Shown: positions 13,125 through 63,409 of the stretch, in pieces
Layout: each line of letters begins with the position of its first letter
Position numbering within the stretch: the first letter of the stretch is position 1
Assembly: GCA_003024785.1 (NCBI GenBank)
Contig: PUQB01000314.1
Coordinates: 227,010-291,009, forward strand
Source of the DNA: Selaginella tamariscina
Taxonomy: Eukaryota; Streptophyta; Lycopodiopsida; Selaginellales; Selaginellaceae
Direction of reading: 5' to 3'
DNA length: 64,000 nt
The notes under the pieces: model-generated
Databases searched by the model: none
What the model was told of the DNA's origin: nothing
What the model saw: the letters and a program-made list of their open reading frames with translations, nothing else
Translations under genes and position numbers: made by a program

Positions 13125-13778
13125 GAAAGTGAAGGAAAGTTGGCATAGCGAAACTACTGGGAGCAAGTCGAAGATCTCCGTGCTGTTATATTATATTGGA
13201 GAGCTCAAGGCCGGCATGCGGACTACATTGTAGGACATAGTAAAGGTATTTACTTGTTAATGTTATCTATTGGGATACGTGGAGAATGAGGAAAGCCTAG
13301 AGTTACGTTTGAACTTAATATTTTTCAGGTGGTGATACTGTGCTGCTGTATGCCTCAAAGTATAGAGATGTTCACAAGGTTGTAAATGCAAGCGGAATTA
13401 AAGTCTCGTCTCAGGAAGGACTATATGGAGTGAGAGGTTCATTATTGCATAGTACAAGAATGGTGTGTGTGCGCGCGTGCGTGTGTGTTACCATGTTAAG
13501 TTCCAGGGACTTGAAGTGATGGATCAACACGGACATACTTGGAGCAGCACGTAATAACACACACACACACACATACACAGAGAGAGAGAGAGAGACTTAT
13601 GTATACGTTCTCCTGTAGTGTGATGACAATACATGGTTCACAAGATGAAGTGATTCCAGTTGAGGTCGATAAGCTTATAAGAAGTCACACGCTGAAGATT
13701 GTGGAACATTGTTATACAAACCATCTCCCGGAGCTAAAGCGCAAAGTTTTTAACTTCATTCTGGCTGGGCGAGCATAG
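13125..13778 (+). pseudogene. alpha/beta-hydrolase (S33-like) copy 1, 5'-truncated
   Basis: Exons homologous to exons 3, 4 and 6 of the copies at 17389-18715 and 25611-26875. Exon 3 is 13125-13245 and ends in the nucleophile motif GHSK before GTATTT. Exon 4 is about 13329-13462 and has lost the GRGDLK segment. The last exon is 13619-13778 and ends ELKRKVFNFILAGRA. The catalytic-acid motif GSQDEVIPVE is present, but the following residues DAYEF and the later EGAD before the catalytic His are deleted. A 1-bp loss in exon 3 (GGAAAGTTGG) also breaks the frame. Exons 1-2 are absent; the upstream sequence is the OPT fragment. Intron microsatellites (GT, GC, AC, AG) sit at 13463-13595. Confidence 0.85.
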
Positions 13779-14014
13779 AAAAACTTGACAATAATATATA
13801 TATAAACAAGTATGTATGATATACTTTATGCACACATAGTTATAATAAATATAATATATTTGTTGTATTGATTACAATTTGCTTCATTGATTCAAATACA
13901 TATAGACACACACACACACACATAACATATATCAAGTTGTATATGGGTGAGAATAATGAGATTGCATGTGGCAAACGCAAAACCAAGCAGAATTAACAAG
14001 AGAAAATCACATAT

Positions 14015-16869: not shown

Positions 16870-19265
16870 CTATTATAAAATCACATATCTATATCTTACT
16901 ATACGTTAGACTTTAAGGACATTCTTAAAAATACTAAACAAGTAATAGACAAGGAATCTGTTAGAATATCCTTTCCTAAGAAGTATTTCAAACTATTCTA
17001 TATATAGTATATGATATGTAGCATATTTCATATAACTTTATTAATCCAAAACCATAGTTTAAAATCTATTTCTTATGTAAAATTAATATATAGCAAACCA
17101 ACTTCATGTATACATTTAAATTTATTACACAGTTAAGTTGATGTGTATTATTCTATGTTTAATGCGCATATACATGCATATAGAAATAAATGCGGATACA
17201 ATCTGATTATTCTCACCCATATATGACTTAATACAAGAACTTCCTGTTGATATCTATATGTGTGTGTGTGACTGTATGTATTTGAGTCAATGAAGCAAAT
17301 TGACAATATATATTATAATTATGTGTTCATAAAGTATATCATACATACCTTGTTATATATATATATATATATATCTTGTCAAGTTTTTCTATGCTCGCCC
17401 AGCCAGAATGAAGTTTAAAACTTCGCGCTTAAGCTCCGGAAGATGGTTTGTATAACAATGGTCAGCCCCTTCCACAATCTTCAGCGTGTGATTTCTTATA
17501 AGCTTATTGAACTCATATGCATCCTCAACTGGAATCACTTCATCTTGTGAACCATGTATCGTCATCACACTACAGGAGAACGTATACATAAGTCTCTCTC
17601 TCTCTCTCTCTCTCTCTATATTATTTATATATATATTATATATATTATATATGGAGTACCTGCAAGTGCTCGGATATTCCGTGCTGCTCCAAGCATGTCC
17701 GTGTTGATTCTTTGCGTTAAGTCTTCCTTAGTCATTTCAAGTCACCTGGAACTTAAACATGGTAACATACGCACGCGCACACACACGCACGCACACACAC
17801 ACACACCATTCTTGTCATGTGCAATAATGAACCCTCACGCTCACATGCGTTCCATATAGTCCTTCCCGAGACGAGACTCTAATCCTTTTTTAAGATCCCC
17901 ACGTCCGCTTGCATTTACAACCTTGTGAACATCTCCATACTTTGAGGCATACAGCAGCACAGTATCACCACTGAAAAAATATTAAGTTCAAGTGCAACTC
18001 TAGGCTTTCCTCATTCTCCACGTATCCCAAGCTTGTAGATAACATTAATAAGTAAATACCTTTACTATGTCCTACAATGTAGTCCACATGCCGGCCTTGA
18101 GCTCTCCAATATAATATAACAGCACGGAGATCCTCGACTTCCCCCCAGTAGTTCGCTATGCCAACTTTCCTTCACTTTCCCTGCAACATGCGTGTGTGTT
18201 ATATACATATATTAGTTTTTGATGTGTTCGTGCGTATACACACACATGTGCTCTCTCTCTCCTCTCACACACACACACACACACGCACACACTAAGAACT
18301 CTACTAGTTGCAGCTTCAAGTAGATATGAATGGACCAAGTGTGTGTTTGTGTGCGAGAGCAAGAGAGAGACGTATCTATCTATATATCTATCAACATACA
18401 TATAATATATATATTATATATATATATATATCTGTGTGGTGTGTGTACAAATTCATACCCATTTCCAGAAAATCGAAGCGGAAAGTGCTAATGCCGGCCT
18501 ACATAGCGCATCCGAAAGAGATTTAGTAGCAAAGAAATCCTGTAACGATGAATGATTATAGCACGTAATCAGTGGCTACATCAACATACCTTTTGTAGAG
18601 AGAAATCCGTGACATAAAATGCATAAATCTGTGGATCCAGTATCATTCAGAATACCAATCAGCTTCTCCCCTGTGCATTCTCGATTATCGCCCTGGATTC
18701 AGATGCAGCCGCCATTGAAGAACAATTAGGGTTTATTGAGTTAATTTAAGCCGTTGGATTGTATTTACGAGAACACTCCAGCTCAGCATATTTAATAAGT
18801 TTATGTCATAATTATAGCTAATAAACTTCACAATGATAAAAACGGATGTGAATTAAATTTCTATTCATTAACAAAAACAAGCTATACATTTCATATACAC
18901 GTGTATACTAGTGCATAATTTAAACTAATAAAAGGGATCAGTTAGTATTGAGTGTATTAGTTGACAGTTTAAAATTTTATATTGACGGTGTATTAAATTA
19001 TAATTTCTTTAAACCAATATATTAATTTATAAAAATCAAAAAGAATTAAAAAGGTTTTAAAATTAAAATATTTATATAATATATATTTCACTAATCTATA
19101 CAGGACTATATAAATATATTTAAACTTTTTATTTAATTTTGTTTTCTTTAGTAAACTTTGAAAATTATTAGGTCTTACTATAATTGATATATATATCGGC
19201 CAAGTATAGAATTATATATATATATATATACACAACATATAAATAACCGTATAATTACATTGTAA
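16870..19265 (-). repeat. inverted segmental duplication arm carrying hydrolase copy 2
   Basis: The reverse complement of this interval matches 25190-27020 and then 31779-32130. The upstream flank, including the TTGGCCGATATATATAT stretch (19190-19203 against 25270-25290), all exons, and the downstream flank with CAATTTGCTTCATTGACTC (17283-17304 against 31797-31818) are shared. The partner arm is interrupted by element B. Divergence is low to moderate and consists largely of small indels and microsatellite-length differences. Confidence 0.85.
17389..18715 (-). pseudogene. alpha/beta-hydrolase (S33-like) copy 2
   Basis: Exons on the minus strand: 18590-18715 (ATG, MAAASESRAIIENA, then LCHGFLSTK), 18459-18539 (DFFATKSLSDAL, then FRFDF), 18060-18180 (VEDLRAVILYWRAQGRHVDY, then GHSK), about 17807-17970 (GGDTVLLYASKYGDVHKVVN, then SGRGDLK), about 17647-17740, and 17389-17569 (SVMTIHGSQDEVIPVEDAYE, then GADHCYTNH). 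The family is plant alpha/beta-hydrolases of the serine-aminopeptidase/esterase type. Nucleophile Ser in GHSKG, acid Asp in GSQDE and His in ADHCYTNH are all visible. Length is about 260 residues, normal for the family. One-bp losses occur in the exon 1 G run, exon 2 (TGTAGG, and a T run) and exon 3 (GGAAAGTTGG), and exon 4 has a further indel, so it is broken as read. Some of these could be sequence errors. Confidence 0.8.
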
Positions 19266-19399
19266 GGTCTAGGTGTATATCTACAATGCCATATATATTA
19301 TTACTAGCATAGTGGGATTTTAATAATTGTTTGATTGATTTCAATCTTAATTACTCACTCTTTGTATATAAATTAAATTTTAAGTTAATATGATATGCA

Positions 19400-20800
19400 C
19401 ATTTTTATATTCCGAACCTTCACATTGATGGAAGTGAAGGGTATATTTAATTGTCCCTGTAGAACTCTCAAATTTGTGTCTTTTTTTATAGATCTTTCTT
19501 GTCTTTTTAAATCATCAATCTCATTTGATGTGGCATTTACAACTCATGGTGCTACTTCTCTTGTTCATGCTGCGAATCTTCAAGTTCGATCGGATTTCTT
19601 CAATGTAAATCTTGAGGATGATGTGTGCTATTGATTTGATAACTTCACCATGGTCGCCACATATCATTCATTGGGTGTTTACATAAGTTTCCTACTTGTC
19701 TTCAAGGGACGATATTGCATCAGTACAATGGTTTTGAATGCAAAACTAGGGCGATTGAAGTATTCTTTTAATGATCTTCAAATACACATTTGGATATGCT
19801 GACGACTGTGACAATGCTTTTCAGTAATTACATTGTATTCGTCAGGAGCCATCTAAGTCAATGATATAATTTAGTATTCGCTTTTGAAGCCTTTTGCTTT
19901 GTGCAAAGCTTAACATGTTGGAACGCAAGCACTTTATTAAGACCTTGTGGGGCTTGTGCATGCACTGGCTCTAGTGGATGGATGTTGATGTTGCCCATGT
20001 ACTAGTACAAGGTTGGGGCCGTGGATGTGGATGTGGACGTGGATGTGGACATGCAGTCCATTGTTGTGCATGTGATGAGGTTGAACACACATATTGGCGC
20101 TGTTGATGTTTTCCCAATTGGTGTCCTCCATTTCTATGGTGGAGGCCTTAGCGTCAACAATGTTTAATTGGCCCGCTGCAATAGAAGGTCTTGATGCAAT
20201 GGATCTTTTAAATAAGTTAGTGACCCTCTATCTTTCTTTTAAGAGTATCATCAAGGGATTCATTTGGCACTAGTTCATCTGGTTTTACTTTTCAAGCTCA
20301 ATTTAATAACACATGTTCTATTTTTTTTAGTGTTAGTTTGATACATGCTCAAGTTTATCTTTTATTCCTTAGTTTATTGCTATATATTGTCGTCTTCATT
20401 TGTGCCATGTGAGAGAATCAGTTTTCATTCTTTATGGCAATGGACATACTCATGCTTGTTTACAGGATGAGACTAACATTGTTGTTCATGTGAATGATTG
20501 TGAGTTTAAGCTTCAATCTTTGCAAGTGGTGTTGAGTCAAGCTTTTGACATTATTTTTGATATGGATTGGTTGATTTAAATCATGCCAAGTATAACTTTA
20601 AAAAGTCTCTTTCTTATTTAACTCTCCCTTATCTTTTTTTTATTTCTATTACTTTTATATCTATATACTTTTACTTCTGTTTTTATCACTTTTGTCTCAC
20701 ATTTACTTTTTTATTTTTTTCTTCATGCTCTTCCATTCCCTCTCTGAATCCCTCAGACAATCATCGTGATGCAGTTATCCTAACTGAAACATAGTAGTGG
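19400..20800 (+). mobile_element. Ty3-type family A, degenerate partial copy (A2)
   Basis: On the plus strand this starts with the 3' end of a family-A LTR (TATATTCCGAACCTTCACAT at 19407-19426). It continues through the leader, which aligns with the complement of 63190-63247 (TTAATTGTCCCTGTAGAACT). It then runs through gag and protease to about 20770, matching 61600-63248. A zinc-knuckle remnant (CACDEVEHTYWRC-like) lies at about 20060-20105, and MDWLI followed by HAKYNFKKS (retropepsin C-terminal flank) lies near 20560-20605. The copy stops close to the start of RT; no pol or second LTR follows. It is the most decayed of the three copies, with many C-to-T type changes and stops throughout. 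Confidence 0.8.
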
Positions 20801-25206: not shown

Positions 25207-27020
25207 TATTATATTTTATTATTTTCCTATTCATCGAGTTTTATAGTAATTTTTTAAATTTATAATTTATACTTGGCCGATATATATATATATATTATAT
25301 ATCAAATTATAGAGAGACCTAAACATTAAATAATTAAAACGTACATCATTAAAGTGATAACTCAAACGTTTTACTAAAAAAGAAAATTAATTTAAATAAA
25401 ATAAATTTTAAAATATATTTATTTAGTCCTGTATAGATTAGTGAACTATATAATAAATAAGTGTTTTAACAGAGGGGGCATTCAAATAAATGAATAGAAA
25501 TTTAATTTCATATCCTTATCAATGCTATCTTATTAAAATATGCAATCCAACGGCTTAAACCTGATTAACTCAATATGTAAAAACCCTAATTGTTCTTCTG
25601 CGCTGCAGCAATGGCGGCTGCATCTGAATCCAGGGCGATAATCGAGAATGCAAAGGGGGAGAAGCTGATTGGTATTCTGACTGATACTGGATCCACAGAT
25701 TTATGCATTTTATGTCACGGATTTCTCTCTACAAAGGTATGTATGATGTAGCCACTCATTACGTGCTTATACATTCATCTCGTTACAGGATTTCTTTGCT
25801 ACTAAATCTCTTTCGGATGCGCTATGTGAGGCCGGCATTAGCACTTTCCGCTTCGATTTTTCTGGAAATGGGTATGAATTTGTACACACACACACACATA
25901 TATATATATGTATGTATGTATGTATGTTGATAGATATATAGATAGATAGATACGTCTCTCTCTCGCTCTCGCACACAAACACACACTTGGTCCATTCATA
26001 TCCAACTAGTAGAGTCCTTAGTGTGTGCGTGTGTGTGTGTGAGAGAGAGAGAGAGAGCACATGTGTGTGTATACGCACGAACACATCACAAAACTAATAT
26101 ATGTATATAACACACACATGCATGTTGCAGGGAAAGTGAAGGAAAATTTGGCATAGCGAACTACTGGGGGGAAGTCGAAGATCTCCGTGCTGTTATTATA
26201 TTGGAGAGCTCAAGGCCGGCATGTGGACTACATTGTAGGACATAGTAAAGGTATTTACATATTAATGTTATCTACAAGCTTGGGATACGTGGAGAATGGG
26301 GAAAAAGCCTAGAGTTGCACTTGAACTTAATATTTTTCAGGTGGTGATACTGTGCTGCTGTATGCCTCAAAGTATGGAGATGTTCACAAGGTTGTAAATG
26401 CAAGCGGACGTGGGGATCTTAAAAATGGATTGAAGTCTCGTCTCGGGAAGGACTATATGGAACGCACTGAGCGTGAGGGGTTCATTATTGGACATGGTGT
26501 TTGTGTGTGTGTACGTGCATATGTGCGCCCGCGCGTGTGTTACCATGTTAAGTTCCAGGGGACTTGAAAGTGACTAAGGAAGACTTAATGCAAGGGATCA
26601 ACACGGACATGCTTGGAGCAGCACGTAATATCCCGAGCACTTGCAGGTACACACACACACCACACAGACTTATGATGTATACGTTCTCCTGTAGTGTGAT
26701 GACGATACATGGTTCACAAGATGACTTGGTTCCAGTTGAGGATGCATACGAGTTCGATAAGCTTATAAGAAATCACATGCTGAAGATTGTGGAAGGGGCT
26801 GGACATGGTTATACAAACCATCTTCCGGAGCTTAAGCGGGAAGTTTTAAACTTCATTCTGGCTGGGCGAGCATAGAAAAACTTGATAGTATATATATGTA
26901 TATATATCTATATCTATATCTATATATTATATAAACAAGGTATGTATGATAGAACACAGTTATAATATATATTGTATAACTGTATAATATTATATAAATA
27001 TTGTTTATATGTATTATAGT
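25190..27020 (+). repeat. inverted duplication arm carrying hydrolase copy 3 (continues at 31779-32130)
   Basis: Reverse-complement partner of 16870-19265. The arm is split by insertion of LTR element B between 27020 and 31779; the homology to copy 2's downstream flank resumes at about 31790 (GATTACAATTTGCTTCATTG). Confidence 0.85.
25611..26875 (+). pseudogene. alpha/beta-hydrolase (S33-like) copy 3, best preserved
   Basis: Six exons: 25611-25736 (42 codons, MAAASESRAIIENAKGEKLI to LCHGFLSTK), 25789-25871, 26131-26250, 26341-26496, 26559-26646 and 26695-26875 (ending LKREVLNFILAGRA). The protein fits the plant alpha/beta-hydrolase family of about 260 residues, with hydrophobic LCILCHGF (oxyanion strand), FRFDFSGNGESEGKFGIANY, GHSKG nucleophile elbow, acid Asp in GSQDDLVPVED, and catalytic His in GAGHGYTNH. 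Exons 1-2 are fully open. In exon 3 a 2-bp deletion (GTTATTATATTGG, where copies 1 and 2 have GTTATATTATATTGG) shifts the frame before the Ser motif; otherwise it would be intact. Substrate is unknown. Introns carry AC/GT/GA microsatellites. A real 2-bp loss makes it a pseudogene; if it is a sequence error, the gene could work. Confidence 0.82.
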
Positions 27021-27249
27021 TGTAAGGTTCCATGGTATATACTATGTATATACGCCACGTATACTCTGCCATGATGGGTGCCAAGTGGCATTAGGATTCA
27101 TACACACTAATATGGGCATTGGGGCTGGCTAATCTGGGCACCATGATTTACTTGGTACCAAGAGTGCTAATCCTAGCACAGACACTTAGTATAAATACCT
27201 GTATCAGTCAGACCTAATTGAATCGTATTTAGTATTCACACCTCTCTCA
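27021..27249 (+). repeat. 5' LTR of element B (229 bp)
   Basis: Begins TGTAAGGTTCCATGGTATAT and ends CACACCTCTCTCA. A TATA-like AGTATAAATACC lies at 27188-27199, about 50 bp before the 3' end. Contains an inverted GTATATACTATGTATATAC stretch. Confidence 0.95.
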
Positions 27250-27266
27250 TTGGTGGAGAAGTTGGG
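27250..27266 (+). other. putative primer-binding site of element B
   Basis: TTGGTGGAGAAGTTGGG follows the 5' LTR directly. TGG at its start is what a tRNA 3'-CCA end would pair with. I cannot assign the tRNA. Family A has TTGGTGGAGGTGAGGGG in the same place. Confidence 0.5.
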
Positions 27267-27323
27267 TAGTCCTTTTTCGGCTTAGTTTTTTTGTCTCCCT
27301 CTTCCCTTGTGTTCTTGGTCGTG

Positions 27324-28214
27324 ATGGCAACCGAAGAAAGGTGGTTGCAGTTGTTCGATGCACTGCAATTGAGCGTGGCAAATCAGACTGCTCTGCTGCG
27401 AGAAATTCACCAAGGAATGCAGCAGAATGCTAGTATGCCGCAGAGTTCCAATCCACGTGTTCGTCCAGAATTCTTCAAGGGGGAGTTGGAGCAGACGTGT
27501 ACCATTGGTGGGAACATTTTCAAGGGATTGCTGATTACCATGGATGGTCTGACTCCCAGCGGTTGCGAGAGTTCCCAACGTGTTGCAAGGACTTGCCTTG
27601 CAATGGTACAATGGTGTCCCCGTTCTTGATCGACAAGATTGGAACATCTTATCCCAGCGTTTCAAGCAAGCTTTTGGTAAGCCCGAGGATTCTGCTGCAG
27701 CTTTTCGTGAGCTCCATGACTTGAAGCAAGTGTCGGGAGAGACTGTCCAACGATTCGGGATTAAGTTTCGAAACTTGGTCAATCGTGCAGATCCAAGCAT
27801 GACAGAACGGGTACGTTGGGCTTGTTATGGCCAGCTCTTCGCCCTGATTTGGCTGGCTTGGTGGAGGGATTTGGTCCTTCGACTGTGGAGGAGGCCTTGC
27901 GGATTGCACAACGATTTGAGAACTCATTGGGGGCAGCACAACGTGTATATCCTGTATCGGCACCTATTCCTGGGACATCCGATCCTGTTCCGATGGAGGT
28001 GGGTGCTGTTCAGATGGAGGACCAGTCCTCAGGCCGCAGGAGGGGCCCAGGCCAAGCTGCTGGTCGTGGTCGTGGTCGTGGGCGGAACATTCAGTGCTAT
28101 GAGTGCCGAGGTTGGGGACATGTTGCACGAGCATGTGCAAATCGACATCAAGTAGCTGCCATCGAGACTGCAGAAGAAGTGGAGACTCTTCCGCAGCCGG
28201 AAAACGAGGCATAG
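27324..28214 (+). pseudogene. gag of element B (three frameshifts)
   Basis: Starts MATEERWLQLFDALQ at the first ATG after the leader and ends PQPENEA at TAG 28212-28214. Conserved retrotransposon gag features appear in order: RVRPEFFKG, YHWWEHFQGIADYHGW, then LREFPTCCK followed by LALQWYNGV (the gag core shared with family A: DVYHWFDHF and TALQWYNGL). A basic Arg/Gly stretch and one zinc knuckle CYECRGWGHVARAC follow, for RNA binding. The reading frame changes three times (near 27490, 27580 and 27810). The intact protein would be about 297 residues. The frame changes could be decay or sequence errors, since pol is largely open. Confidence 0.88.
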
Positions 28215-31200
28215 TGCATGGGGTGTCAGAGGACCCATGCACTAGGCACATTGCACCACCTCTGAAGAACTTGATTCCAGCGCATGGTCGACACTTCCCC
28301 GAAGCACCTTTGTTCTTCCATGCTTGTGCGGGCATAGGGGTCTCGAGTGAGTTACTGGACACTGAGCGTTTTATGTTTGTGTTCTCCGGCATGGTAGAAG
28401 GAACTCCTGTTTCAGTCCTGGTGGACTCCGGATCCAGTATATCTTCTATCAATCGATCAGTAGCGGAGTCCTTGCACTTGCACACAGTACCAGCTGAGCG
28501 AACTTTGAAGGTAGTGTTTGCTGATAAGCAGTCTTTTGCTAGATCACATCGAATTGCACATGTGCCTGTGGTGTTAGGAGGATACCATCATCTACTTCCG
28601 TTGCGGGTGATGCCGAGCCAAGTCCATGACATCATCCTCGGTGTCAATTGGCTTCGTGCGGTCAAGGCAAGATGTGATTTTGAAATGTGCACGTTGTCTA
28701 TCCCAGGATGCCCCCCATTGCAGGCTACAGAACATGCACCGAATGGCATGGCGGCAACATTGCAGGGCATGATGGCGCCTAAGGCAGAGCCTTCTCCAGA
28801 GCAACGAGCTAAGGACATCAAGGAGTTGTTGGCGAGGTATCCGAGCCTATTCAAACCCATTGTAGGAGATGCGAATCCCCTGTTGACTACTCGGCATCAC
28901 ATCCCGACTGGTACAACTCGCCCGATCAGATGGGGCTCAGGCGACGATCTCCAAAGGAGAAGGATATCTTGAATCGTTGTGTGAGGGAGATGCTAGAGTT
29001 GAAGGTGATACGTAAGTCTCGAAGTCCATGGGCAGCAGAACCACACCTAGTTCCGAAGCCGGATGGGACTACACGTTTCACTATTGATTTCAGGCCATTG
29101 AACGATGTTTCTGTTCCAGATTCATATCCACTACCAAGGGTGGATGATTTGGTCGATGCATTGGGGAATAGCCGGTACTTCACTATCCTTGACATGGCTT
29201 CCGGCTATTGGCAGATCCCTATGGCTCCTGAAGATGCAGCAAAGACAGCATTTCGAACACCATCCGGCTTGTACGAGTTTACAGTCATGCCATTTGGGTT
29301 GGTCGGGGCCCCAGCAACCTTCCAGCGGATGATGGATGAGCTATTGGAGGGCTTTGAAGAATTTGCACGTGCGTACATCGATGACCTTCTTATTCACTCT
29401 GCTACGTGGGAGGAGCACCTTCAGCAGTTAGAGCGGGTCCTGCAGCGATTGGTGCAATACGGGCTGAAGTTGAAAGAGCAGAAGTGCAAGTTCGGATGTA
29501 CCTCCTTGAAATACTTAGGATTCATCATCACGGCAGAGGGTGTGAAACCGGATCCCGAGAAGACCCTAGCTGTACGAGAATTTCCTGCTCCTGAGTCAGT
29601 GGCGGAGTTGCAGCGTTTCTTGGGAAAGGCAACATACCTAGCGAGGTTTGTTCCGCGGTTCTCAGATTTGACAGCCCCATTGCGAGGATTGTTAAAACAA
29701 GGAGCTCAGTTCCGGTGGTCCAAGAAGTGTCAGAAGGCGTTCGAGGATGTTAAGGCATTGCTAGGATCTCCACCTTTGTTGCGGTATCCGGACTTTGCCA
29801 AATCCTTTATTCTTCGGACCGATGCTTCAGATGTCGGGTTGGGGGCCGATCTGTTGCAGGAGACTCCCAATGGTCAGCGGTACCCAATCGCTTATGCAAG
29901 TCGGAGCCTTACTGAGGCAGAGAAAAATTATTCCACCACGGACAAGGAATGTCTGGCAGCCGTATGGGCCTTTCAAAAGTTCCATGCATATCTACATGGC
30001 TCCAACACATTGTTGGAAACTGATCATGCTGCTGTCAACTCAATCATGAAGAGGAGGAATGTGACGGGACGACTTGCACGTTGGGCGTTAATTTTGCAAG
30101 GGTATCGTTTTCGGGTTGTTCATCGCCCAGGGTCTAGCATGGCGGATGTGGATGCGTTATCCCGAGCTCCTGTGGTAGTGGCAGCCCCTGTAGCATTGTT
30201 GCCGGATGCCCTTCCTGATCGCGTACTTCCGAGGCGGGAAGACATTGTGGAGGCTCAAAAGATGGAGCCATGGATCAGGAGGTTGCGTGAGTCTTGAGTA
30301 GTGAGGTACCCTGCGAGGATCTTAACTTTCGCACATATGCACGATCTTTCAGACTGATGGATGACTTGCTTGTCTTTGTTGGAGACGGTTCCGAGTGTCG
30401 TGTGGTGGCACCACCAGTTTACATTAACTCCTGGTTGCAGTTCTTTCATGACAACCCGATGTCCGGACACATGGGATTCCAACGATGCCTTGAGAGGATT
30501 CGACAGCACTTGTATTGGCCCCGATTGCGACAAGACCTACATGAGTACATTCATACGTGTCCGGAGTGTCAACGGCATAACGTGTCCACACTTCCTCCTG
30601 CGGCAACCCTGGAACCAATTCGAGTTTCTCGCCCCTTTGAGCTGGTAGCGTATGACATCATGGGACCATTCCCTGTGTCGCAGTTCGGTAATCGATACAT
30701 CATTGTGTGCTCTGATTACTTGACTCGGTGGGTAGAAGTGTGTGCTTTGCCAGATGCTACAGCAACTTCCATCATCAAGTTCCTACTAGCTCAAGTGGTG
30801 CTGAGGCATGGTTGCCCCGAACGAATTTTATCGGATCAAGGACCAGGCCCAGCAGCGGAAGCAGTAGCTTTGTTGATGCGACGGTTGCAGATCCGACAAT
30901 CTTTTGCCTCAGCTTATCATCCTGAGACTGATGGTTTGGTGGAGCGGTTGAACAGAACTTTCAAAGTCATGCTTGCCAAGTATGTGCGTCCTGACCATAC
31001 GGATTGGGATATGTGGCTTCCATATCTCCAATTTGCTTATGTTTCAGCCCCTCACAAGTCAACAGGGATTTCCCCATTCAAAGCTTTGTATGGTCGTGAA
31101 CCTGTATTGCCACCAGCAGTTGGCATACTCCTCACGAAGCACGGTATATGGATGGGCGTATGTGGTTGGAGCATTTGAACCAAGTCCTTCCTCTGTTGTA

Positions 31201-31546
31201 TGCTCAAGGTGGAGAACAGTTAGCTCGTGCACAAGAGTATCAGCGTCGGACTTACAATCAACGACATCGAATGCCACCTCAATACCAAGTGGGAGATTTG
31301 GTTCTCGTCAAGTTTCCAAGGTTAGGGGATCAAACACACGCAGCAGGGCTTCAACCGCGATGGGTCGGGCCTTGGAGTGTTGAAGAACAGTTGGGAACAC
31401 AAGTGTATCGCTTGAAGCGGCGTGATGGGGTTCGGGAGTCACAACATGTCGCTCATGTGTCGGCTACTACCGTTCCACCAACGGACACTCGTCCAAGGAG
31501 GAGGACCACCTTGATAGGTAGAAGCCATGTCTTGAGAGGGGGATGA
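28215..31546 (+). pseudogene. pro-pol of element B (protease, RT, RNase H, integrase), three frameshifts
   Basis: Follows gag in a different frame. Protease: VLVDSGSSISSINRS (D-S-G site) near 28419-28463, with ILGVNWL downstream. A frame break near 28930 separates it from a 455-codon stretch with RT (YPLPRVDDLVDAL, LDMASGYWQIPM, MPFGLVGAPATFQRMMDE, catalytic YIDDLLIHS) and RNase H (DASDVGLGADLL, TTDKECLAAVWAF). After a break at about 30295 comes integrase: an H-H-C-C zinc region (HMGF...CPECQRH) and a D,D,E core (VAYDIMGPF, ILSDQGPGP, DGLVERLNRTFK). A last break near 31140 leads to QVGDLVLVKFPRLGDQ and RWVGPWSV. The TGA at 31544-31546 abuts the 3' LTR. Integrase has GPGP where F/AF is usual. 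There is no chromodomain. Confidence 0.92.
31534..31546 (+). other. polypurine tract of element B
   Basis: GAGAGGGGGATGA directly precedes the 3' LTR and overlaps the pol stop codon. Family A has the near-identical GAGAGGAGGGGATGA in the same position. Confidence 0.85.
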
Positions 31547-31778
31547 TGTAAGGTTCCATGGTATATACTATGTATATACGCCACGTATACTCTGCCATGG
31601 AGGTGCCAAGTGGCATTAGGATTCATACACACTAATATGGGCATTGGCTAATCTGGGGGCTGGCTAATCTGGGCACCATGATTTACTTGGTACCAAGAGT
31701 GCTAATCCTAGCACAGACACTTAGTATAAATACCTGTCAGACCTAATCGAATCGTATTTAGTATTCACACCTCTCTCA
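31547..31778 (+). repeat. 3' LTR of element B (232 bp)
   Basis: Near-identical to 27021-27249. The differences are a 2-bp loss at GAGGTGCC, a short duplication GGCTAATCTGGGG, loss of ATCAGTCA-type bases in the TATA-distal part, and one substitution (CTAATCGAATC). Confidence 0.95.
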
Positions 31779-32150
31779 TAGTGACCTTAATTGATTACAA
31801 TTTGCTTCATTGACTCAAATACATACAGACACACACTCACATATAGATACCAACAGGAAGTTCTTGTATCAAGTCGTATATGGGTGAGAGTAATCAGATT
31901 GCACCCACATTTTATTTCTATATGCGCATTAAACATAGAATTATTCACATCAACATTAACAAAACACACAACAGGAATACATTTTGTATGTTTAATAAAG
32001 TTAAATGTATACATGAAGTTGGTTTACTAAATATTTAATCAAAGAAATAGATTTTAAACTATGGTTTGGATACTAATAAGGTATATGAAATATGCTACAT
32101 ATCATATACTGTATAAGAATAGTTTAAAATAATCTGTACAACGCGTTTAC
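31779..32150 (+). repeat. resumed 3' flank of hydrolase copy 3
   Basis: Matches the complement of 17040-17305 (flank of copy 2) and, for its first part, 13868-13960 (flank of copy 1). Begins with the TAGT target duplication of element B. No gene. Confidence 0.8.
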
Positions 32151-45120: not shown

Positions 45121-46847
45121 GTGATTGCCCTAATGATGCTTGTTTTGGGACAGCGCTACGCATCTCTATCTAAGCTTAAGCAATCGGTAAAAGATGCTGC
45201 TGTAGCTGGAAATTTTGAGTTGAGAAAAATAAAAAATGATAAATCTCGATACACAGTTGGATGTAACAGAGAAGGGTGTTTTGGCGTTTGCATGCTTCAC
45301 TCATTGATCAAGGCCCTGCCTGCTCAATCAAAGCATTCATCAGTGATCATTCATGTGATGGATTGATCATCTTGGGAACAAAGAAGCTTCAGCAAGTTGG
45401 ATTTTAGACAAGTTTCAAAACAGGGTGAGGCATGAGCCACACGTGACTCCCAAGAGTATAATGGCTGAAATTAGACGAGATCATGGAGTCTCTGTCTCCT
45501 ACGACTTGGCCTGGAAAGGGAAGGAGAAAGCTGTTTTAGCAATTCATGGGGATCATGAAGCTGCATACTCTAACCTGAGAGGTTACAAGATGTTGTTTTT
45601 GAGAGATAATCCCGGCACTGTTTTGGATATTCAGCAAGATGATACAGGTCATTTTCAAAGGCTTTTCTTAGCGTATCATGCTTCCATCTTAGGTTTTCAA
45701 TATTGCAAGCCTCTGATTGGATTGGATGGGACGCACATCAAATCCAGATACTTGGGATGCCTGCTTGTGGCAATTGCTGTGGATGCAAAAGGGCAACTGT
45801 TTCCATTGGCATTTGCAGTTGCAAATGCTGAGAATCGTGAAAACTGGGTCTGGTTTTTGGAGCATTTGAAGAGGCTCATCAACATGAATCACCCATATGC
45901 TTCAGCCTACACATTCCTTTCAGATAGACAAAAAGGTGTTCTGGACACTGTATCTTTGATCTTTCCAAATGCCTATCATGGGTTTTGCATGAGACATTTC
46001 TCAAAGAATTTTCGAAAAACGTTTAAAAATATTGAGCTGGTTCATCTTCTTTGGAATGTTGCTTGAGCATTGACTCATCGTGTTTGAAGAAGCTCTAGCG
46101 GTTATTCGAGAGAAAGATAGAGCTGCTGCTGATTGGATTCTGGCTACTGCTGAACCAAAGTTTTGGGCATCTGCATGGTTTGAGGGAGACCGGTTTGGGC
46201 ATTTAACCACAAACGTCTCTAAGTCTCTAAATGCTTGGCTTTTGGAAGCTCGAGACAAGCCAATCCTCGCTATGCTCGAACATATCCGACAAAAGTTGAT
46301 GAGCTGGTTTTATGAACGGAGGATAGAAGGTTTATCAAGCAGATGCGAGGCTGATGAGTTCAAGCTAGTTGACACAGCGGAGAAGATCATTCATGATGCT
46401 CTTTCATGTGCAAGATATTATGTTGTCTCACCATCTGATGCAAATGTTTTCGAGATTCAAACAGATAAGCATACTCGAGTGGTGAACATATCTCAAAGAA
46501 GTTGTAGTTGTTGTTCATGGCAGAGATTGGGATTACATGTGCCCATGGGATTGCAGCCATCCTATGGAAAAGGAGCGTGTTCAGAGTTATGCTCACCTAG
46601 TTTTTTGGTGGATTCCTATTGCAAATCATACACGGGAGTCATTTACCCAATGGATCTTCAGGAGTTGGAAGCTGATGACTTGAAGCCTCCAAACACTCGC
46701 AGACCTCCTGGACGTCCAAAGAAGAAGCGAGTTCGCACAGAGAATGAAGGAGAAAACGAGCATTTCATTGTAGCCGGTGTGGACAATGTGGCCACAGTCA
46801 CCGCACTTGTACTGCAGCAATTTAAATTTGAATTTTACGTAATTTAA
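45121..46847 (+). pseudogene. MULE transposase (MuDR family), frameshifted
   Basis: N-terminal zinc-binding MuDR-type DNA-binding region (SLSKLKQSVKDAAVAGNFEL, SRYTVGCNREGCFGV) ends early by a frame break near 45366. The second stretch (45425-46066) has HVTPKSIMAEIRRDHG and the DDE catalytic core. This includes LIGLDGTHIKSRYLG (first Asp), LLVAIAVDAKGQLFPLAFAV, TFLSDRQKGV (second Asp) and FPNAYHGFCMRHFSKNF. After a break near 46070 come FWASAWFEGDRFGHLTTNVS and a SWIM zinc finger. There CSC is kept but the CAHG half lies in another frame (46530-46550). The tail RRPPGRPKKKRVRTE is AT-hook/nuclear-signal-like. About 600 residues if whole. Three indels make it inactive as read. Confidence 0.92.
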
Positions 46848-47813: not shown

Positions 47814-50290
47814 TTAGAAACTAGGGCACCCTTTCACTTTAACCCTGGAGCAGTGGGACACGTTGCTAAAGGACACTGCACATCCGCGCGGCTCCCCCAC
47901 CAAGAGACCTCCTTATGATTATCCTTAAGTCCAAACGATATAATCACATTAGCAAAAGCCACGCCAGCGTCAAGCGCACGGACAGCACGTAGTTATGCGT
48001 TTTCCACCACTCTCTCCTGTACCTAAACACAAGGTAATTAAAGATAAACCCAACCATGAACCAGCTCCAAAAATTAACTGCAGCTGCGTAAGGCATCATG
48101 GAAGCCGCACTAAGCATGAGTGGTATACTTATCTTCTTGAGCCACGTCTTCTCCGGGTAAACCTTACTGAGAAGCCAGCCCGGAACCGGTGCCAGTGCAC
48201 CGAACAGGAAGGCATAGTTTAGCTTCCTGTAGAACCCTTGGGGCCCCATTATGTTCCTGGGTCCTATCAATCCCCATACGATTGATCCGTCGTAGAAAAT
48301 CTCGTCATGTGGACACGACCAGACGTTACCCAGCCTCTCGGTATCGCACATGTGCGGCATTGTGTCCAGCAGCCACCATCCGACACCGAGGTAAGTCGTT
48401 CCGGCAACCGTGCTCCCCAACACCTGAGTCAGAAACATGTACCTCGGCGGTATCTTCATGTAGTGCCCCAGCTTCAGGTCGCCGAGCAAACCTAGAGCCT
48501 GAACCAATGTAGTGAAACCGTACCCTCTGAACAAGAGCGTCCCCATCGGCCTCCCCGGTGCTATGTAACCAAACGTGGTCTCAAAGAAGTAGACAATCTT
48601 AAGCATCTGTACAGACGTGTTATTAGTGTACCAAAGAAGTGCGAATGCTCTTTATGTATGTACCTGATTCGTGGTTGCATATATGACAGCGAGGGGAGTG
48701 TCAAGATGAACCCGATAAACACAGCGAGTAGCACCCCCACCACGGAAGCTGCAGTTCCTTATAAAACTGACAGGCAAGCATGGAAGCGACGAGGCCGACT
48801 ACCAGTACAGCAGAGAACCACCAGGTTGGTACTTGCTTGTACGCTCTCATCAGCTTTGTGTGTACATCGACCTTCCCCCGCCTTCTGTACGCATAGAAAA
48901 ACTCCTTACCGTGGTTGAGCAGGACGTGGACAATGCTTGCGGTGATCAGGGCAAATCCGCGGCATACGTGTACACGAAGATGATGCTCAGGTAAGGGTGT
49001 CCATACGTCTCGTACCCACGCTCGTTCAGGTGTAAGTCGTGGGTGAGAACCTTGTCGTGGTTGTACCTGTGACCATCAAAAGAATACAGCTTCTTGGAGA
49101 ACAACGGGAACCTCCTCGCCTCCAGGAGACCGGTACCAGGACGTAGAGGGTTACCACGAACCCGACCATGACGTTTACTATGGCGAAGAACGGGGTTGCC
49201 AGCGGGGTCTTTATGTACCCTGCTATCGTGCTCCAGTCCAGTCCGACCGCTCCCAGGCCCAGCCCGGCAGTTCCAGATCCAAGCTGGTTCGCCAGTACCG
49301 AGTCCCTCCATATATAGCAGACCCACGAGACCGACGTCAGTACGGTGAATAAGTAACCTGGTAACCAGTAATATGCGAAGCTCATGAACATTGCCACGAG
49401 GAAGAACCTGATACGTCCACCCTGCTCGTGCATAGCCCTGCATAAGGATGTGCATGATTCACACAAAAACTTATTTAAAATGTAATTATTTATATACTTT
49501 TAAATTATATACTATGACATTTTAATCATAAACTTAACATAATTTGTAGCTCATAAGATTTTTAAATTCATAACTTACCTTTAATACACACACACACACA
49601 CACACATATATAATTAACATATGAATAACCTTACCTATATAAAGAAACTTGAACGAGACTCGACGGCACCACATATGTGAAGGTTCAATAAGTATCTTCC
49701 TGAACGGTCCTACAAACCATATCCGATTAACTGCCAAAAACACATATAATGTTAAAAAACCATTAAAAATATTTGTTAAATATTTAATAATATTAAATCA
49801 TATAATTAATTAATTATTATAATTTTCTACCTGGATTGTTAAGGTAACAAAAAGGCCGGCTACAAAACTGAGTTTCCTATGGTAAAAGGCTTTTAAAACA
49901 GTGATAGCATGAGAGAAACACACTGGTAGCACCGGCATTGGCAAACACGGTAATAAAGTACATGCTCTTTGATAGTAAACGGACCGGGATTCAACAAGAA
50001 ATGAAATCTTCCATATCCGACTTGATATCCGGCAGCCACATAGCCATTGCCTTACCGAGAGGAAGGGCCAGGATTTGTGCACAGTACACATCGACGATCA
50101 ACTGTGTGTTTCGTAGTGAGAGATACTCGTTGACGAAGGAGAGAACCATACATGATAAGACACCAAGGAACACAACCCTGAACGTGAACACTCTCTGTGA
50201 CGTGTCATCTGTCTCCGGCACCACCAATCGGACTTCTTCGATGGCTACCTCCTCGTCGTCGCAGCTGGCCCAATCTTTCCCTTTCTCCAT
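47814..50290 (-). pseudogene. OPT-family oligopeptide transporter, four exons, multiple frameshifts
   Basis: Exons on minus: 49831-50290 (MEKGKDWASCDDEEVAIEEV, then LSLRNTQLIVDVYCAQILAL, NPGPFTIKEHVL, KLSFVAGLFVTLTIQ), 49635-49730 (IWFVGPFRKILIEPSHMW), 48664-49437 (HEQGGRIRFFLVAMFMSFAY, then HGKEFFYAYRRRGKVDVHTK, LQLPWWGVLLAV) and 47814-48606 (GDLKLGHYMKIPPRYM, VWGLIGPRNIMGPQGFYRKL, CPLATCPTAPG). These are OPT hallmarks: NPGPF, SPYAQ-like region, KIPPR and WGLIGP. The protein would be about 700 residues with 12-16 membrane helices, a proton-coupled carrier of small peptides or metal chelates at the plasma membrane. At least eight 1-bp indels occur (for example at NPGPF, HVL, YAA, LPWWG, VLSV and APG). 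The last intron is only 57 bp. All motifs are intact except for frame, so sequence error is a live alternative. Confidence 0.88.
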
Positions 50291-58469: not shown

Positions 58470-58547
58470 AAATTTGTATAGATTTATGAGGTGCAGGCGG
58501 CATGTACTGCCGTACAATAGAATATTTTATTAAATTTAAAATAAAGT
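58470..58547. other. short spacer between two insertions
   Basis: Seventy-eight bases of host DNA between the Harbinger right end and the left LTR of element A3. It ends with the AAGT target duplication of A3. Confidence 0.7.
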
Positions 58548-58705
58548 TGTGAGAGCTCGGAATATAGAAATGTGTATATCCATTAGTTCAGAAACCCTAA
58601 CTTATATACAAGACGTGGTCCAGATTGAATCCAATCCGACGGTTATCAAAATCCACTACGCTAATAATAGTATGTGCACATGCAGCCGTACACGTGGATC
58701 TTACA
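58548..58705 (-). repeat. 3' LTR of element A3 (158 bp)
   Basis: Plus strand runs TGTGAGAGCTCGGAATATAG to ACGTGGATCTTACA. Very like 63248-63405, with a 3-bp loss at AAGACGTGG and a few substitutions. Confidence 0.95.
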
Positions 58706-58720
58706 TCATCCCCTCCTCTC
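58706..58720 (-). other. polypurine tract of element A3
   Basis: On the minus strand GAGAGGAGGGGATGA directly precedes the 3' LTR TGTAAGATCC, as in element B. Confidence 0.85.
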
Positions 58721-58799
58721 GGAAGGGTGTAAGTTGGTTAGGGTTCTCTTGTAGACGGGCCCGGATCTGGAGGAACATCAAGGAGGAGGCACTGGTGGA

Positions 58800-61700
58800 T
58801 CTATAGGCGGCACAACTTGTTCCCGTTGCACAAAATGCTTCAACCGTTGTACATGTACAATCTCCGGAGATCGGGTTGAATGTCGTGCCGAACCTCATAA
58901 AACCTGTGGTCCTACTTGCCGTAACACTCGATACGGTCCTTTCCATTGAGGAAGGAGACTCTTAGCTAACCACGTACCGTAAGCTTGGGAAAACGAACCA
59001 ACACCAGTTCATCAACCTTGTACTCCGCAGGAGGACGATGATGCGAGTTGTACCGTTGTTGTTGTCCTACTTGTACGCGGCCCAAGTGTTCTGCTGACTC
59101 CGCACGAACCAATGGAAGGATGTTGTCAGATACCGATCCCATGACCTAGCATCAGCAGCTCGCGGTAACCGAGACGGGCAAACCCAACTCCGTTGGCAAC
59201 ACCGGTCATGACCATTACAAAGCTTATATGGAGAAGTACAATGGAACTTTGAACTTCAGTGACATAAGCATATCGGAGAGACGGCAGATAACCATCCCAA
59301 TCTGAATGTTGAAAGTTCACATACTTTGCGATCATCCCCTTGAAGGTTCTAACAAGCCGTTCCACTAAACCATCTGTCTGAGGATGATAAGCACTTGTGA
59401 AAGTGTGGCGTATCCCTAATCGAGATGTCAAAACATGAAATGCCTCAGCCATAAATGCGGGACCATTATCCGAGAGAATTCGCTCCGGACAAGAATGCTG
59501 AAACACGACCCGATTCAGGAGAAACTGACCAACAGCAGAAGCAGTCGCACTAGCAAGAGCACCAACTTCTACCCAACGAGTTAGGTAATCAGAAGCAATA
59601 ATAACGTACTCGTTACCAGCAGTTGACCGCGGAAAAGGTCCCATCAAATCAAATGCCACCAATTCAAACGGACGAGAAACTGCAATTGACTCCAACCGTC
59701 CTTCCGAAGCACATGGGGGAGTATTGCGAGCTTGGCACCACACACAACTACGCACATACCGAATCACATCTCCTCGCAACTCCGGCCAATAGAAAGATCT
59801 GCGCAGCTTCTCCATCACCCGACGATGTCCCATGTGCCCGCCAAGAATAGGAGAGTCATGGTAAGCATGGAGGAAGCGTGGAATGAAGATTGAAGGCACC
59901 AACCGCAAAGGATCATCTGGATCAGTCCCCACAAAATAAAGAAGGTCATCCTGAAGGCGATACTGTGAATGTAAATGCCTGAAAGGCAAGTCATCAGCAA
60001 GTGATGCAGGATTCTCAAACCCATCACGAAGCCTTCGAATCCACGGCTCAACCTTTTGAGCTTCCCGAACCTCATCCAAAGACGGCAAATCTAACTCTGC
60101 ATTCTGCGGACACTGAACGTCAAGCACAGCAACTGCTGATGGTACGGAATCTTCATCCAAAAAGTCCACTGAAGCTGGAACAACTGGTTCCTCTGGGGCA
60201 ACAGAAGAGAGAGAAGGTGGAAGAGGAGCCCGAGAAAGAGCATCAGCATCAGCCATGGAACCCTGGACGATGAACAACTTCAAAGTCGTAAATTTGAAGT
60301 TTCAAGGCCCACCGAGCAGTACGCCCAATCAAATTCTTTCGCTTCAACAACGAAGTGACTGCTGCATGATCACCTTCCAACAACGTCCGCGAACCATGCA
60401 AGTAGGCATGGAGCTTCTCAAAACCCCAAACTGCTGCTAGACACTCCTTTTCAGTTGTGGAGTAATTCACCTCTGCTGGCTGCAATGTACGGCTGATGTG
60501 CAATGGGATGTCGTTGGCCAGGAACACTTGTACTCTCCTGCATCAATACACCCCCGAGGCCGATGTCAGAAGCATCTACACGCAAGATGAAAGGACGGTG
60601 TAATCCGGGTACGCCAAAACTGGAGGAGTCGTCAACAACTCTTTGAGATCTGCAAATGCCTGCTTGCAATCCTTAGACCAAACAAAAGAAGTCATTGACG
60701 ATTTCAACAACGCGCGCAACGGTGCAGTACGATCTGAAAGATGATCCAAACGACCCAGATATTGTACCTTGCCAAGAAAGCGTTGCACATCATTCACACA
60801 CTTGGCGTAGGGAACTTCAAAACTGCAACTAGTTTGTCAGGATCGACTTGCAAACCTTCACGTGAAATGCGATAACCCAGATAAGTGGTGTCCTTTGATC
60901 CAAAACACACTTAGATGGCTTCAACTTCAAACCAACTTCCCGCAGTCGATCCAAAACCTTACGTACATCACCGACATGCTCCTCCCACGTTCCATCCGAA
61001 TGGATCAAAACATCATCGATGAAATCGGCAGTCACCTCCGGCATGTCGCAAAGAACCTCATCCATCATACGCTGGAAAGTTGCTGGAGCATTGCTCAAAC
61101 CGAAAGGCATCACCAGGAACTCGTACAGGCCAAATGGTGTCGAAAAGCAGTCTTGGGAATGTCCATGTCAGCCATCGGAACTTGCCAATATCCAGATGCG
61201 AGATCTAACTTGGTGAACCAACGGCTCCGCCCCAGTCGATCCAAAAGGTCTGCAGTATGAGGAAGTGGGTACACATCTGAGACGGTTACCTCATTTAACG
61301 GGCGATAATCAATGCAGAATCGAACGCTCCCATCAGGCTTCGTCACAAGGTGAGGTTCGCACGCCCAAGGACTTCGAGACTTCCGGATAACACCCTTCTC
61401 CAACATCTCTTTGACATTCGCTCGTAAGATCTTGAGCTCCTTTGGTGATCGACGCCGAACAGGTACCTTGATTGGCCTAGCTTCTCCAGTTGGAATAGGG
61501 TGGCGTGTCGCAATCTTGGCCCCAGATGACAAGTCGAAGTTGAAAAGATCAGCATACTCCTTCTTGAGTTGATCAACAACTACAGCACGACGATCATCTG
61601 ATGGATCCAAAGAAGAAAAGGAAGAGCATGAAGGGAAAATGGTTGGAAATAAGGGTGAGACAAAAGTGATGGAAGCAGAGGTGGAAGCAGATGGACGAAG

Positions 61701-62150
61701 TGGAATAGAAGTAAGAGGAATGGAAGAAAGACGAGGGAGAGTCAAACAAGGGGGAGACTTTTCAAAGTCACACTTGGCATGATTGCGAGTTAACCAATCC
61801 ATACCAAGAATAAGGTGAAAAGCTTGACTCGGCACCACCCGCAAAGATTGAAGCTCGAGCTCACAATCATCCACACGAACAACAATGTCCACTTCATCCC
61901 GCGAACAAGCATGAGTATGTCCGTTGCCGTACAGAATGAAGACTGGTTCTACCGCACGACGCAAATGAAGGCTGCAACGTGTAGCAACAGATTGAGAAAC
62001 AGAGGACAAACTTGAACCTGTATCCACCAACACTGAAAGGAAAACAGGATGAGGTGTGCGATTGAAACGAGCTTGAAAAGTGAAAACCGGATGATTTGGT
62101 GCCGAGTGAACCCCTTGATGATACTCCCGAAAGAAAGATGGAGGGGTCAC
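58800..62150 (-). pseudogene. pro-pol of element A3
   Basis: Minus strand order: protease VLVDTGSSLSSVSQS (about 62010-62055) and [19 protein letters not shown] follows in the same 346-codon frame (IRKSRSPWACEPHLVTKPDG, YPLPHTADLLDRLGRSRWF, LDLASGYWQVPM). A break near 61130 leads to [20 protein letters not shown] and FIDDVLIHSDG (catalytic DD with Phe for Tyr). RNase H pieces (DASDIGLGGVLMQ, TTEKECLAAVWGFEKLHAYL) are in two more frames. The 385-codon block 59126-60283 has ADADALSRAPLP, the zinc region (HMGHRRVMEKL, CVWCQARN) and the integrase core (VAFDLMGPF, ILSDNGPAFMAE, TDGLVERLVRTFK). The C-terminus (58800-59125) is frame-broken, contains VRHDIQPDLRRLYMYNG-like text, and has no chromodomain. 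Confidence 0.9.
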
Positions 62151-62176
62151 TAATTTATTCGCACGAGGACCCTCCT

Positions 62177-63110
62177 CTACTCGTGCGATTCGTCGTTTCC
62201 CGGAAGATCCACCGCATCACAACCTTCCACTGCAGCAGCACCAACCGGACGTTGTTGACGCCATGGCCTCCATCCTGGAAATGGGGGACGCCAATCGGGA
62301 AACCGTTGACAGCGCCGATACGTGTGTCCAACCTCATCACATGCCCAACAACGAACTGCACGTCCACGTCCTCGTCCACGGGCCCCACCTTGTGCTGGTA
62401 CACGAGCGGCAACAGCCTCAACCTCCATCGGAGCAGGTCCATCCCCAACATGGAGTGGAACAAGAGCACGTGAAGGCACAAGTGGGAGAGGTGACGACTC
62501 ATATCGTTGTGCCAGCCTCAAAGCATCGTCAAGAGTCACTGGAGCTAGTGCATGCACAAGCCCCACAAGGTCTTGACGAAGTGCTGGCCACAACATACCT
62601 AACTTGATGCGTTCCGACATGTTAGGTTCTGCACGCAGCAAAAGGCTTCGAAAGCGAACACCAAACTGCATCACCGACTCAGATGGCTCCTGACGAATAC
62701 GATGCAACTGCTGAAAAGCATCATCACAGTCGTCCGCATGCCCAAATGCACGTTTGAAGATCTCTGGAAGAATATTCCAATCCACGAGTTGCAACGTCCA
62801 GACCATTGTACCACTGCAACGCCGTCCCTTGAAGACAAGTAGGAAACTCGCGCAAACACTGAGCACCGTCCCACGAATGATATGTGGCAACCACAGTGAA
62901 GTGGTCAAACCAATGGTACACATCATCTCCAGGATTTCCGCGAAAGAAATCCGGTCGGACACGGGGGTTTGCAACATGCGTAGGAGGAGTACCCTGGCCT
63001 GTGAATGCTGCCATCAACTGAGAATGATTGTTCAGTTGCACACGCATGGCATCCAACAACTGCATGAGTAACTGCTCCACAGACAAGGGATTTGTCTGTT
63101 GTGGATTCAT
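62177..63110 (-). pseudogene. gag of element A3
   Basis: Starts MNPQQTNPLSVEQLLMQLLD at 63110. The gag core reads DVYHWFDHFTVVATYHSWDG and then TALQWYNGLDVATR. A frame break near 62800 follows, then FKRAFGHADDCDDAFQQLHR, RAEPNMSERIKLGMLWPALR, an Arg/Gly stretch and one CCHC knuckle CWACDEVGHTYRRC, ending NDESHE at 62177. About 310 residues when read through the break. Alignable with gag of element B around YHW-x(2)-HF and ALQWYNG. Confidence 0.88.
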
Positions 63111-63247
63111 GGATGAAGAAGAGACAAAATCCACAAGAAAGGAATAGATCTAGACAATGGAAAAGCTAGACCTAAGAAGACAGAGAAAAAAGACACAAAT
63201 CCGAGCACTCCGTAGGGACAATTAGAGGTGCCCCTCACCTCCACCAA

Positions 63248-63405
63248 TGTGAGAGCTCGGAATATAGAAATGTGTATATCCATTAGTTCAGAAACCCTAA
63301 CTTATATACAAGAGCGAGTGGTCCAGATTGAAATCCAAACGGCTATCAAAATCCACTACGCTAATAATAGTATGTGCACATGCAGCCGTACACGTGGATC
63401 TTACA
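63248..63405 (-). repeat. 5' LTR of element A3 (158 bp)
   Basis: Partner of 58548-58705. On the minus strand it starts TGTAAGATCCACGTG, carries CTTGTATATAAGTTAGGG (TATA box, about 63297-63314) and ends GAGCTCTCACA. The transcript would start within about 50 bp of the inner end. Confidence 0.95.
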
Positions 63406-63409
63406 AAGT

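Follow-up and report, generated by a model that had tools for sequence, protein, structure and literature searches.

Among the plant Ty3-type retrotransposons, the REXdb survey distinguishes three groups of non-chromoviruses: OTA, Phygy and Selgy (PMC6317226). Selgy was described from Selaginella moellendorffii as a species-specific clade of short elements without a chromodomain, whose polyprotein nearly fills the interior (PMC6317226), and the authors of InpactorDB call it lycophyte-specific (PMC7910972). Non-chromoviruses are primed mainly by tRNA-Ala, Arg, Asp, Lys or Trp and not by tRNA-Met, which is the prevailing primer of the chromoviruses; in its algae, the survey encountered no non-chromoviruses (PMC6317226). 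The present analysis concerns two elements, A and B, in a 64,000-nucleotide stretch of the Selaginella tamariscina genome (assembly GCA_003024785.1, contig PUQB01000314.1, positions 227,010 to 291,009), hereafter the window. The assembly gave 26 matches to chlorophyll a/b-binding proteins. One of these (L059) is Lhcb2-like: its best PDB match is a 620-aa chain labelled LHCI-2, followed mostly by shorter chains of plant type, among which several labelled 2.1, 2.2 or Lhcb2, names of vascular-plant Lhcb2 proteins, rank before those labelled 1 or Lhcb1. A and B very probably represent one non-chromovirus Ty3 lineage native to the lycophyte, most likely the Selgy of REXdb.

Anatomy, copies and target sites

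Element A is a Ty3-type element of 4758 bp (27021-31778, + strand) between two long terminal repeats (LTRs) of 229 and 232 bp. These run TGTAAG...CTCTCTCA, and TTGGTGGAG starts at 27250, directly after the 5' LTR. Element B, of the same type, covers 4858 bp on the other strand (58548-63405, -), with both LTRs 158 bp long, TTGGTGGAG at 63239-63247 after the 5' LTR and a G-rich polypurine tract (PPT), GAGGGGATGA. The initial annotation, made from the letters of the window, had described this anatomy (LTR lengths, about 4.8 kb in total, TGTAAG start, TTGGTGGAG after the 5' LTR, PPT fused to the LTR), and it is real. The reverse transcriptase (RT) motifs also read as claimed: SGYWQIPM and MPFGLVGAPATFQRMMDE in A, SGYWQVPM and an 18-residue box in B, where they lie in two frames since the copy is damaged. 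The parts of both elements are as follows.

27017..27020 (left) and 31779-31782 (right), + strand: target-site duplication (TSD) of A, TAGT (border comparison)
27021..27249, + strand: A 5' LTR, 229 bp (LTR alignment)
27251..27267, + strand: A primer-binding site TGGTGGAGAAGTTGGGT, complementary over 17 nt to the 3' end of a tRNA-Ala type (...ACCCAACTTCTCCA plus CCA)
27553..28155, + strand: A gag capsid piece (Retrotrans_gag, PF03732, E 2.9e-9), gag being frame-split here
28095..28136, + strand: A gag zinc knuckle CX2CX4HX4C (CYECRGWGHVARAC), read by eye, without Pfam match
28388..28651, + strand: A aspartic protease (PF13650, E 2.3e-11)
28813..30297, + strand: A RT and RNase H open frame, 494 aa (PF00078 4.9e-37, PF17917 6.5e-38)
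30291..31178, + strand: A integrase, H2C2 zinc finger and rve core (PF17921 1.8e-18, PF00665 5.4e-12)
31154..31546, + strand: A integrase C-terminus, GPY/F-like, stop in the PPT, without chromodomain
31534..31546, + strand: A PPT (G-rich) GAGAGGGGGATGA
31547..31778, + strand: A 3' LTR, 232 bp (LTR alignment)
58544-58547 and 63406-63409: TSD of B, AAGT (on the + strand)
58548..58705, - strand: B 3' LTR, 158 bp
58781..59145, - strand: B integrase C-terminal pieces in separate frames, GPY/F-like (Pfam scan of four pieces)
59126..63013, - strand: B coding region (gag, protease, RT/RNase H, integrase), frame-split (Pfam, tblastn)
63231..63246, - strand: B primer-binding site TGGTGGAGGTGAGGGG, one mismatch to a tRNA-Ala(CGC) type 3' end
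63248..63405, - strand: B 5' LTR, 158 bp (LTR comparison)

The window copies of both elements are damaged, with gag and pol broken across frames; other copies keep longer frames, the longest of which encloses an A-type RT and measures 1138 aa. The interior of A is coding, in pieces, from gag through to the PPT. In B, Pfam recognizes the protease, a part of the RT and the integrase, with a gag match below the cut-off, and the rest of its RT-RNase H was recovered by tblastn as broken pieces. More B-like stretches, also damaged, lie at 1-2800 and 19392-20572.

The absence of a chromodomain, noted in the initial annotation, agrees with scans of both integrase ends, where the domain that follows the integrase in plant chromoviruses was not detected. 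In A, a Pfam scan of the single integrase C-terminal frame, up to the PPT in which its stop falls, detected no chromodomain and gave matches to integrase C-terminal families only, all below the family cut-offs. In B, none was found in the four frame-split end pieces, scanned separately, which gave weak integrase C-terminal matches or nothing. As a control, at least 12 pairs of RT and chromodomain were recognized by eye elsewhere in the host, on the same strand and about 2 kb apart. The RT_RNaseH families are the sole RNase H matches in the open frames of A (Pfam, E <= 0.01); hence, the second, archaeal-type RNase H that characterizes Tat (OTA) was not found in these frames at that threshold.

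The S. tamariscina assembly (300,702,823 bases, 1391 contigs) was searched for further copies. The RT-RNase H of A has at least 96 matches, the family of B included (87 candidates scored of 20,697), so the rarity that had been supposed is not supported. Among 29 other best-matching loci, 18 are 100% identical to A over a 411-aa core, and three further ones over nearly the whole core. Its more distant kin within the genome fall at 89%, 67-68% and 60-65% identity, the family of B belonging to the last group; the LTR of B was located in at least 41 places (40 candidates scored of 1889). In the 16 A copies with two full LTRs, eight pairs are free of mismatches, and only 18 mismatches were counted over 3,760 sites in total, which indicates recent insertions. 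The coexistence of diverged subfamilies in one genome points to a long residence. A is most likely a member of a young, many-copy and otherwise ordinary retrotransposon family.

A survey of TSD length across genomic copies had been proposed with the initial annotation. We examined 21 A copies, five of which, without both borders, were left out of the count. An exact 4-bp TSD is present in most scorable copies (11/16); the others show one exact 5-bp duplication, at an altered LTR end, three 3-bp duplications and one site without duplication. Shuffled flanks gave a mean of 1.1 exact 4-bp matches and a maximum of 5 in 2000 shuffles, against the 11 observed. The duplication length had thus been read correctly, but not the form NAGT that was ascribed to it. 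The exact TSDs are ATAT (three times), TAGT, ACAT, AACC, AGCT, CTAA, AACT, GCTA and TATT, with TAGT in one of the 11, and NAGT was rejected as a target motif, being a coincidence of two copies. A 5-bp TSD, which had been held to be usual in the common plant Ty3 lineages, is indeed found in the majority of the surveyed plant LTR elements (93.4%), but 4-bp duplications also exist (6.2%), and a length of either 4 or 5 bp is typical of a given lineage (PMC6317226). Phygy, the non-chromovirus of Physcomitrella, resembles A and B, by description only, in being rather short with a coding interior; it differs in its preference for NCGN sites (PMC6317226), a pattern seen in none of the 11 exact TSDs of A.

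Element A sits inside one copy (25656-26910 with 31780-32115) of a repeat in the host genome that reaches about 1.7 kb in length and is present three times in the window (also at 13152-13950 and, inverted, at 17001-18671). The two other copies cross the insertion point without A (around 13.7-13.95 kb and 17.15-17.48 kb), where the empty-site junction is AT-rich and gappy, so that a single TAGT is not discernible. Two other A copies (L045 and L055) have near-identical flanks one base apart and 3-bp repeats, as expected either of insertion into a repeated target or of a duplicated locus.

Relatives and origin of the lineage

Outside the host genome, sequences more than 47% identical were found at 11 loci, all from genome contigs, six of which lie in the bin CAKZGI01 (uncultured Trichormus sp.). 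The RT-RNase H of these bin elements is 48-53% identical to that of the A/B lineage. Phylogenetic trees were built from 20 rows, a second tree including in addition a moth-associated RT piece; the bin loci L086 and L087, frame-broken or partial, were excluded. In the 20-row tree, A, the family of B and their kin form one clade (99/96), as the initial annotation had held, and the sister group of this Selaginella lineage consists of the four bin rows (100/99). A separate clade (100/100) is formed by four further Ty3 rows from the host, 38-41% identical to the A/B lineage in RT-RNase H; one of them (L001) carries a chromodomain about 2 kb after the RT and is, thus, a proven chromovirus. The RT-RNase H of yeast Ty3 is homologous (39% identical), but it falls outside the lineage in both trees. 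All these clades are unchanged when the moth-associated piece is added. The approximately unbiased (AU) test, with groups named after the tree was seen, rejects two groupings that leave out the bin rows, namely the lineage with the four host rows (p 0.003) and the lineage with yeast Ty3 (p 0.023).

Several features bring the bin elements close to A and B. L079 is 4846 bp long, TTGGTGGAG occurs in L077 and L079, near the start of these two of the six contigs (some of the six are without the 5' part), and no chromodomain match was obtained in L077 and L078. The differences are the 345-bp LTRs of L079, another host group and other primer-site letters after TTGGTGGAG: L079 has TTGGTGGAGATAACGGGT after its 5' LTR, and its flanks, ATAT and ATAC, are alike in three of four letters. 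The bin gave 16 PPR_2 matches on five contigs, one of them read as a PPR protein fragment, against none in 14 controls; with such plant-type PPR genes, it very probably carries land-plant DNA. Growth of Trichormus azollae away from Azolla ferns does not seem possible (PMC12376041, where a free-living T. variabilis was also used); the bin elements probably come from Azolla fern DNA. As an observation on the public record, Ty3 elements (L077-L080, L086, L087) in a cyanobacterial metagenome-assembled genome with plant-type PPR genes are a probable contamination.

Other collections yielded little. In viral contigs, a single-protein scan gave no match, and none of the 42 stretches matched by an alignment scan was confirmed; phage records held no match to the lineage. 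Three plasmid records matched, one from a Wolbachia of a moth and two from Bacillus of chicken, which we presume to be animal contamination; the moth-associated RT piece of the second tree comes from the first of them. The 5.3-kb record NZ_CP087956.1 (L089), filed as a Wolbachia plasmid, consists in its matched part of a Ty3-type RT and RNase H and may be an insect element, not a plasmid.

The initial annotation had proposed a horizontally acquired lineage, reminiscent of animal, oomycete or algal elements. A gain from such a donor would fit the separation of the lineage from the other Ty3 rows of the host, its position on the same side, weakly (74/85), as the moth-associated RT and five sequences without an identified source, and the minority of 4-bp TSDs in plants (PMC6317226). 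It is nevertheless quite unlikely: the closest outside relatives lie in a bin with plant-type genes, where TTGGTGGAG recurs, whereas the moth-associated sequence and the five others are more distant (40-46% identity; 45% over 190 columns for the moth RT piece). Several diverged subfamilies within the genome and the record of Selgy from Selaginella speak against it as well. With nearest relatives that are probably of water-fern origin, A and B look like native elements of non-seed plants, not recent arrivals from animals or moulds; a very old transfer, preceding the split of lycophytes and ferns, is conceivable. A chromovirus that lost its chromodomain has precedent, as 22% of CRM elements are without one (PMC6317226), and the AU test does not reject a grouping of the lineage with both the bin and the host rows. 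The separate clade of the four host rows and their low identity to the lineage argue against such a loss, as do the A frame, which stops in the PPT with no remnant seen, and the tRNA-Ala primer, whereas tRNA-Met prevails in chromoviruses (PMC6317226). We consider it very unlikely.

The choice then lies with the name. As the definition of Selgy, a species-specific clade, goes back to S. moellendorffii (PMC6317226), the lineage could instead be a separate, unnamed non-chromovirus clade of lycophytes. The testable features, however, agree with Selgy (Selaginella host, no chromodomain, short elements with a coding interior, a primer other than tRNA-Met), and we hold a separate clade to be unlikely. 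The Selgy label and vertical descent are, hence, what we infer for A and B. Some points weigh against this assignment: the Selgy name rests on host and anatomy, compared by description; the AU test leaves the union of lineage, bin and four host rows standing (p 0.15); five of the 16 scored A duplications are not exact 4-bp repeats at fixed borders, and the TSD of B was scored in one copy, that of the window. The fern origin of the bin is itself indirect, as the title of the record gives Trichormus sp. and does not mention T. azollae, and neither of the two Azolla papers searched contains its run, ERR2144891. The term 'non-chromovirus' was not found in the literature on ferns, Azolla and Selaginella, among the matches listed.

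The primer site and tRNA-Ala

The 3' ends of tRNA-Ala are complementary to the site that follows the 5' LTR. Searched for as a pattern, they occur at 31 places of the genome and at none in the reversed control. Five end types are represented: ACCCAACTTCTCCA (13 places), ACCCGGCATCTCCA (8), GCCCAACATCTCCA (5), (A/G)CCCCTCATCTCCA (4) and ACCCAGCATCTCCA (1). Twelve of the matches were retrieved: no tRNA was called in the first two, and tRNA-Ala was called in nine of the ten others (eight with AGC, one with CGC). In the window itself, ARAGORN and Rfam found no tRNA or RNA family. A tRNA-iMet primer and self-priming, considered from reading the sequence alone, were dropped after the tRNA-Ala match.

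Primer sites were compared in 17 of the 21 A copies, those with CTCTCTCA before TTGGTGGAG (L057, with a different LTR end, was excluded); in this set, the constancy of the CTCTCTCA and TTGGTGGAG letters arises by construction. Over 17 nt, six copies, that of the window included, fit type ACCCAACTTCTCCA and three fit type ACCCGGCATCTCCA; four others fit type GCCCAACATCTCCA over 16-17 nt. Thus, 13 of the 17 sites fit one of three tRNA-Ala types, and the remaining four differ by small indels. The site of B fits a fourth type, (A/G)CCCCTCATCTCCA, with one mismatch. The nine positions after TTGGTGGAG show a pairwise difference of 15%; the corresponding values are 0.5% for the adjoining end of the LTR and 1.7% for the sequence downstream. 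Near-identical A copies, therefore, bear different versions of the primer site; this and tRNA-Ala as the predicted primer, both read from the genome sequence, are new here.

In retroviruses, each cycle copies a part of the tRNA primer into the element. Such part-copying is the simplest account of the site as a record of the tRNA-Ala gene type used, and the different versions would have been written by whichever tRNA-Ala primed each copy. In type ACCCAACTTCTCCA, the acceptor stem has T opposite T at positions 6 and 67 (L067 and L075, read by eye). Since copies of this type share flanks, they may be an amplified tRNA-derived repeat; the variant is presumably transcribed. Five loci (L066, L067, L069, L071 and L075) form a tRNA-Ala-like repeat with flanks alike on both sides, possibly a tRNA-derived short interspersed nuclear element or an amplified tRNA gene.

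Two neighbouring features complete the window: a MULE (Mutator-like) transposase in two frames at 45359-46847, in which a SWIM zinc finger matches only weakly, under the cut-off, and an exon-like piece of an OPT oligopeptide transporter at 47944-48651.

Putative cycle and significance

Following the standard Ty3 cycle, transcription would be driven by the LTR and would lead to gag, protease, RT, RNase H and integrase as products. Minus-strand DNA would be primed by tRNA-Ala on TGGTGGAG... and the plus strand at the G-rich tract, and the copy would be integrated through a 4-bp staggered cut, without a chromodomain as tether.

The analysis corrects the view of A and B as foreign elements. They do stand apart from the other host Ty3 rows in the tree, the proven chromovirus included, and the initial annotation was right that they do not look like an angiosperm chromovirus; in a lycophyte, a Ty3 element of this kind is expected. 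Two extras go beyond the known lycophyte lineage, namely a probable fern branch and primer sites that track tRNA-Ala gene types. The chances are about even that both belong to one picture: an old vascular-plant clade of non-chromoviruses, shared by lycophytes and ferns and wider than the 'species-specific' Selgy, whose primer sites log, copy by copy, which tRNA-Ala type primed, the amplified variant with the mismatched stem included. If the fern link is true, a clade called Selaginella-specific reaches the ferns and may predate the split between lycophytes and ferns. If the primer record is true, the amplified tRNA-Ala variant with a mismatched acceptor stem is transcribed and used, and the patchwork of primer sites would be a simple genomic readout of the tRNA isodecoders that prime a plant retrotransposon in nature.

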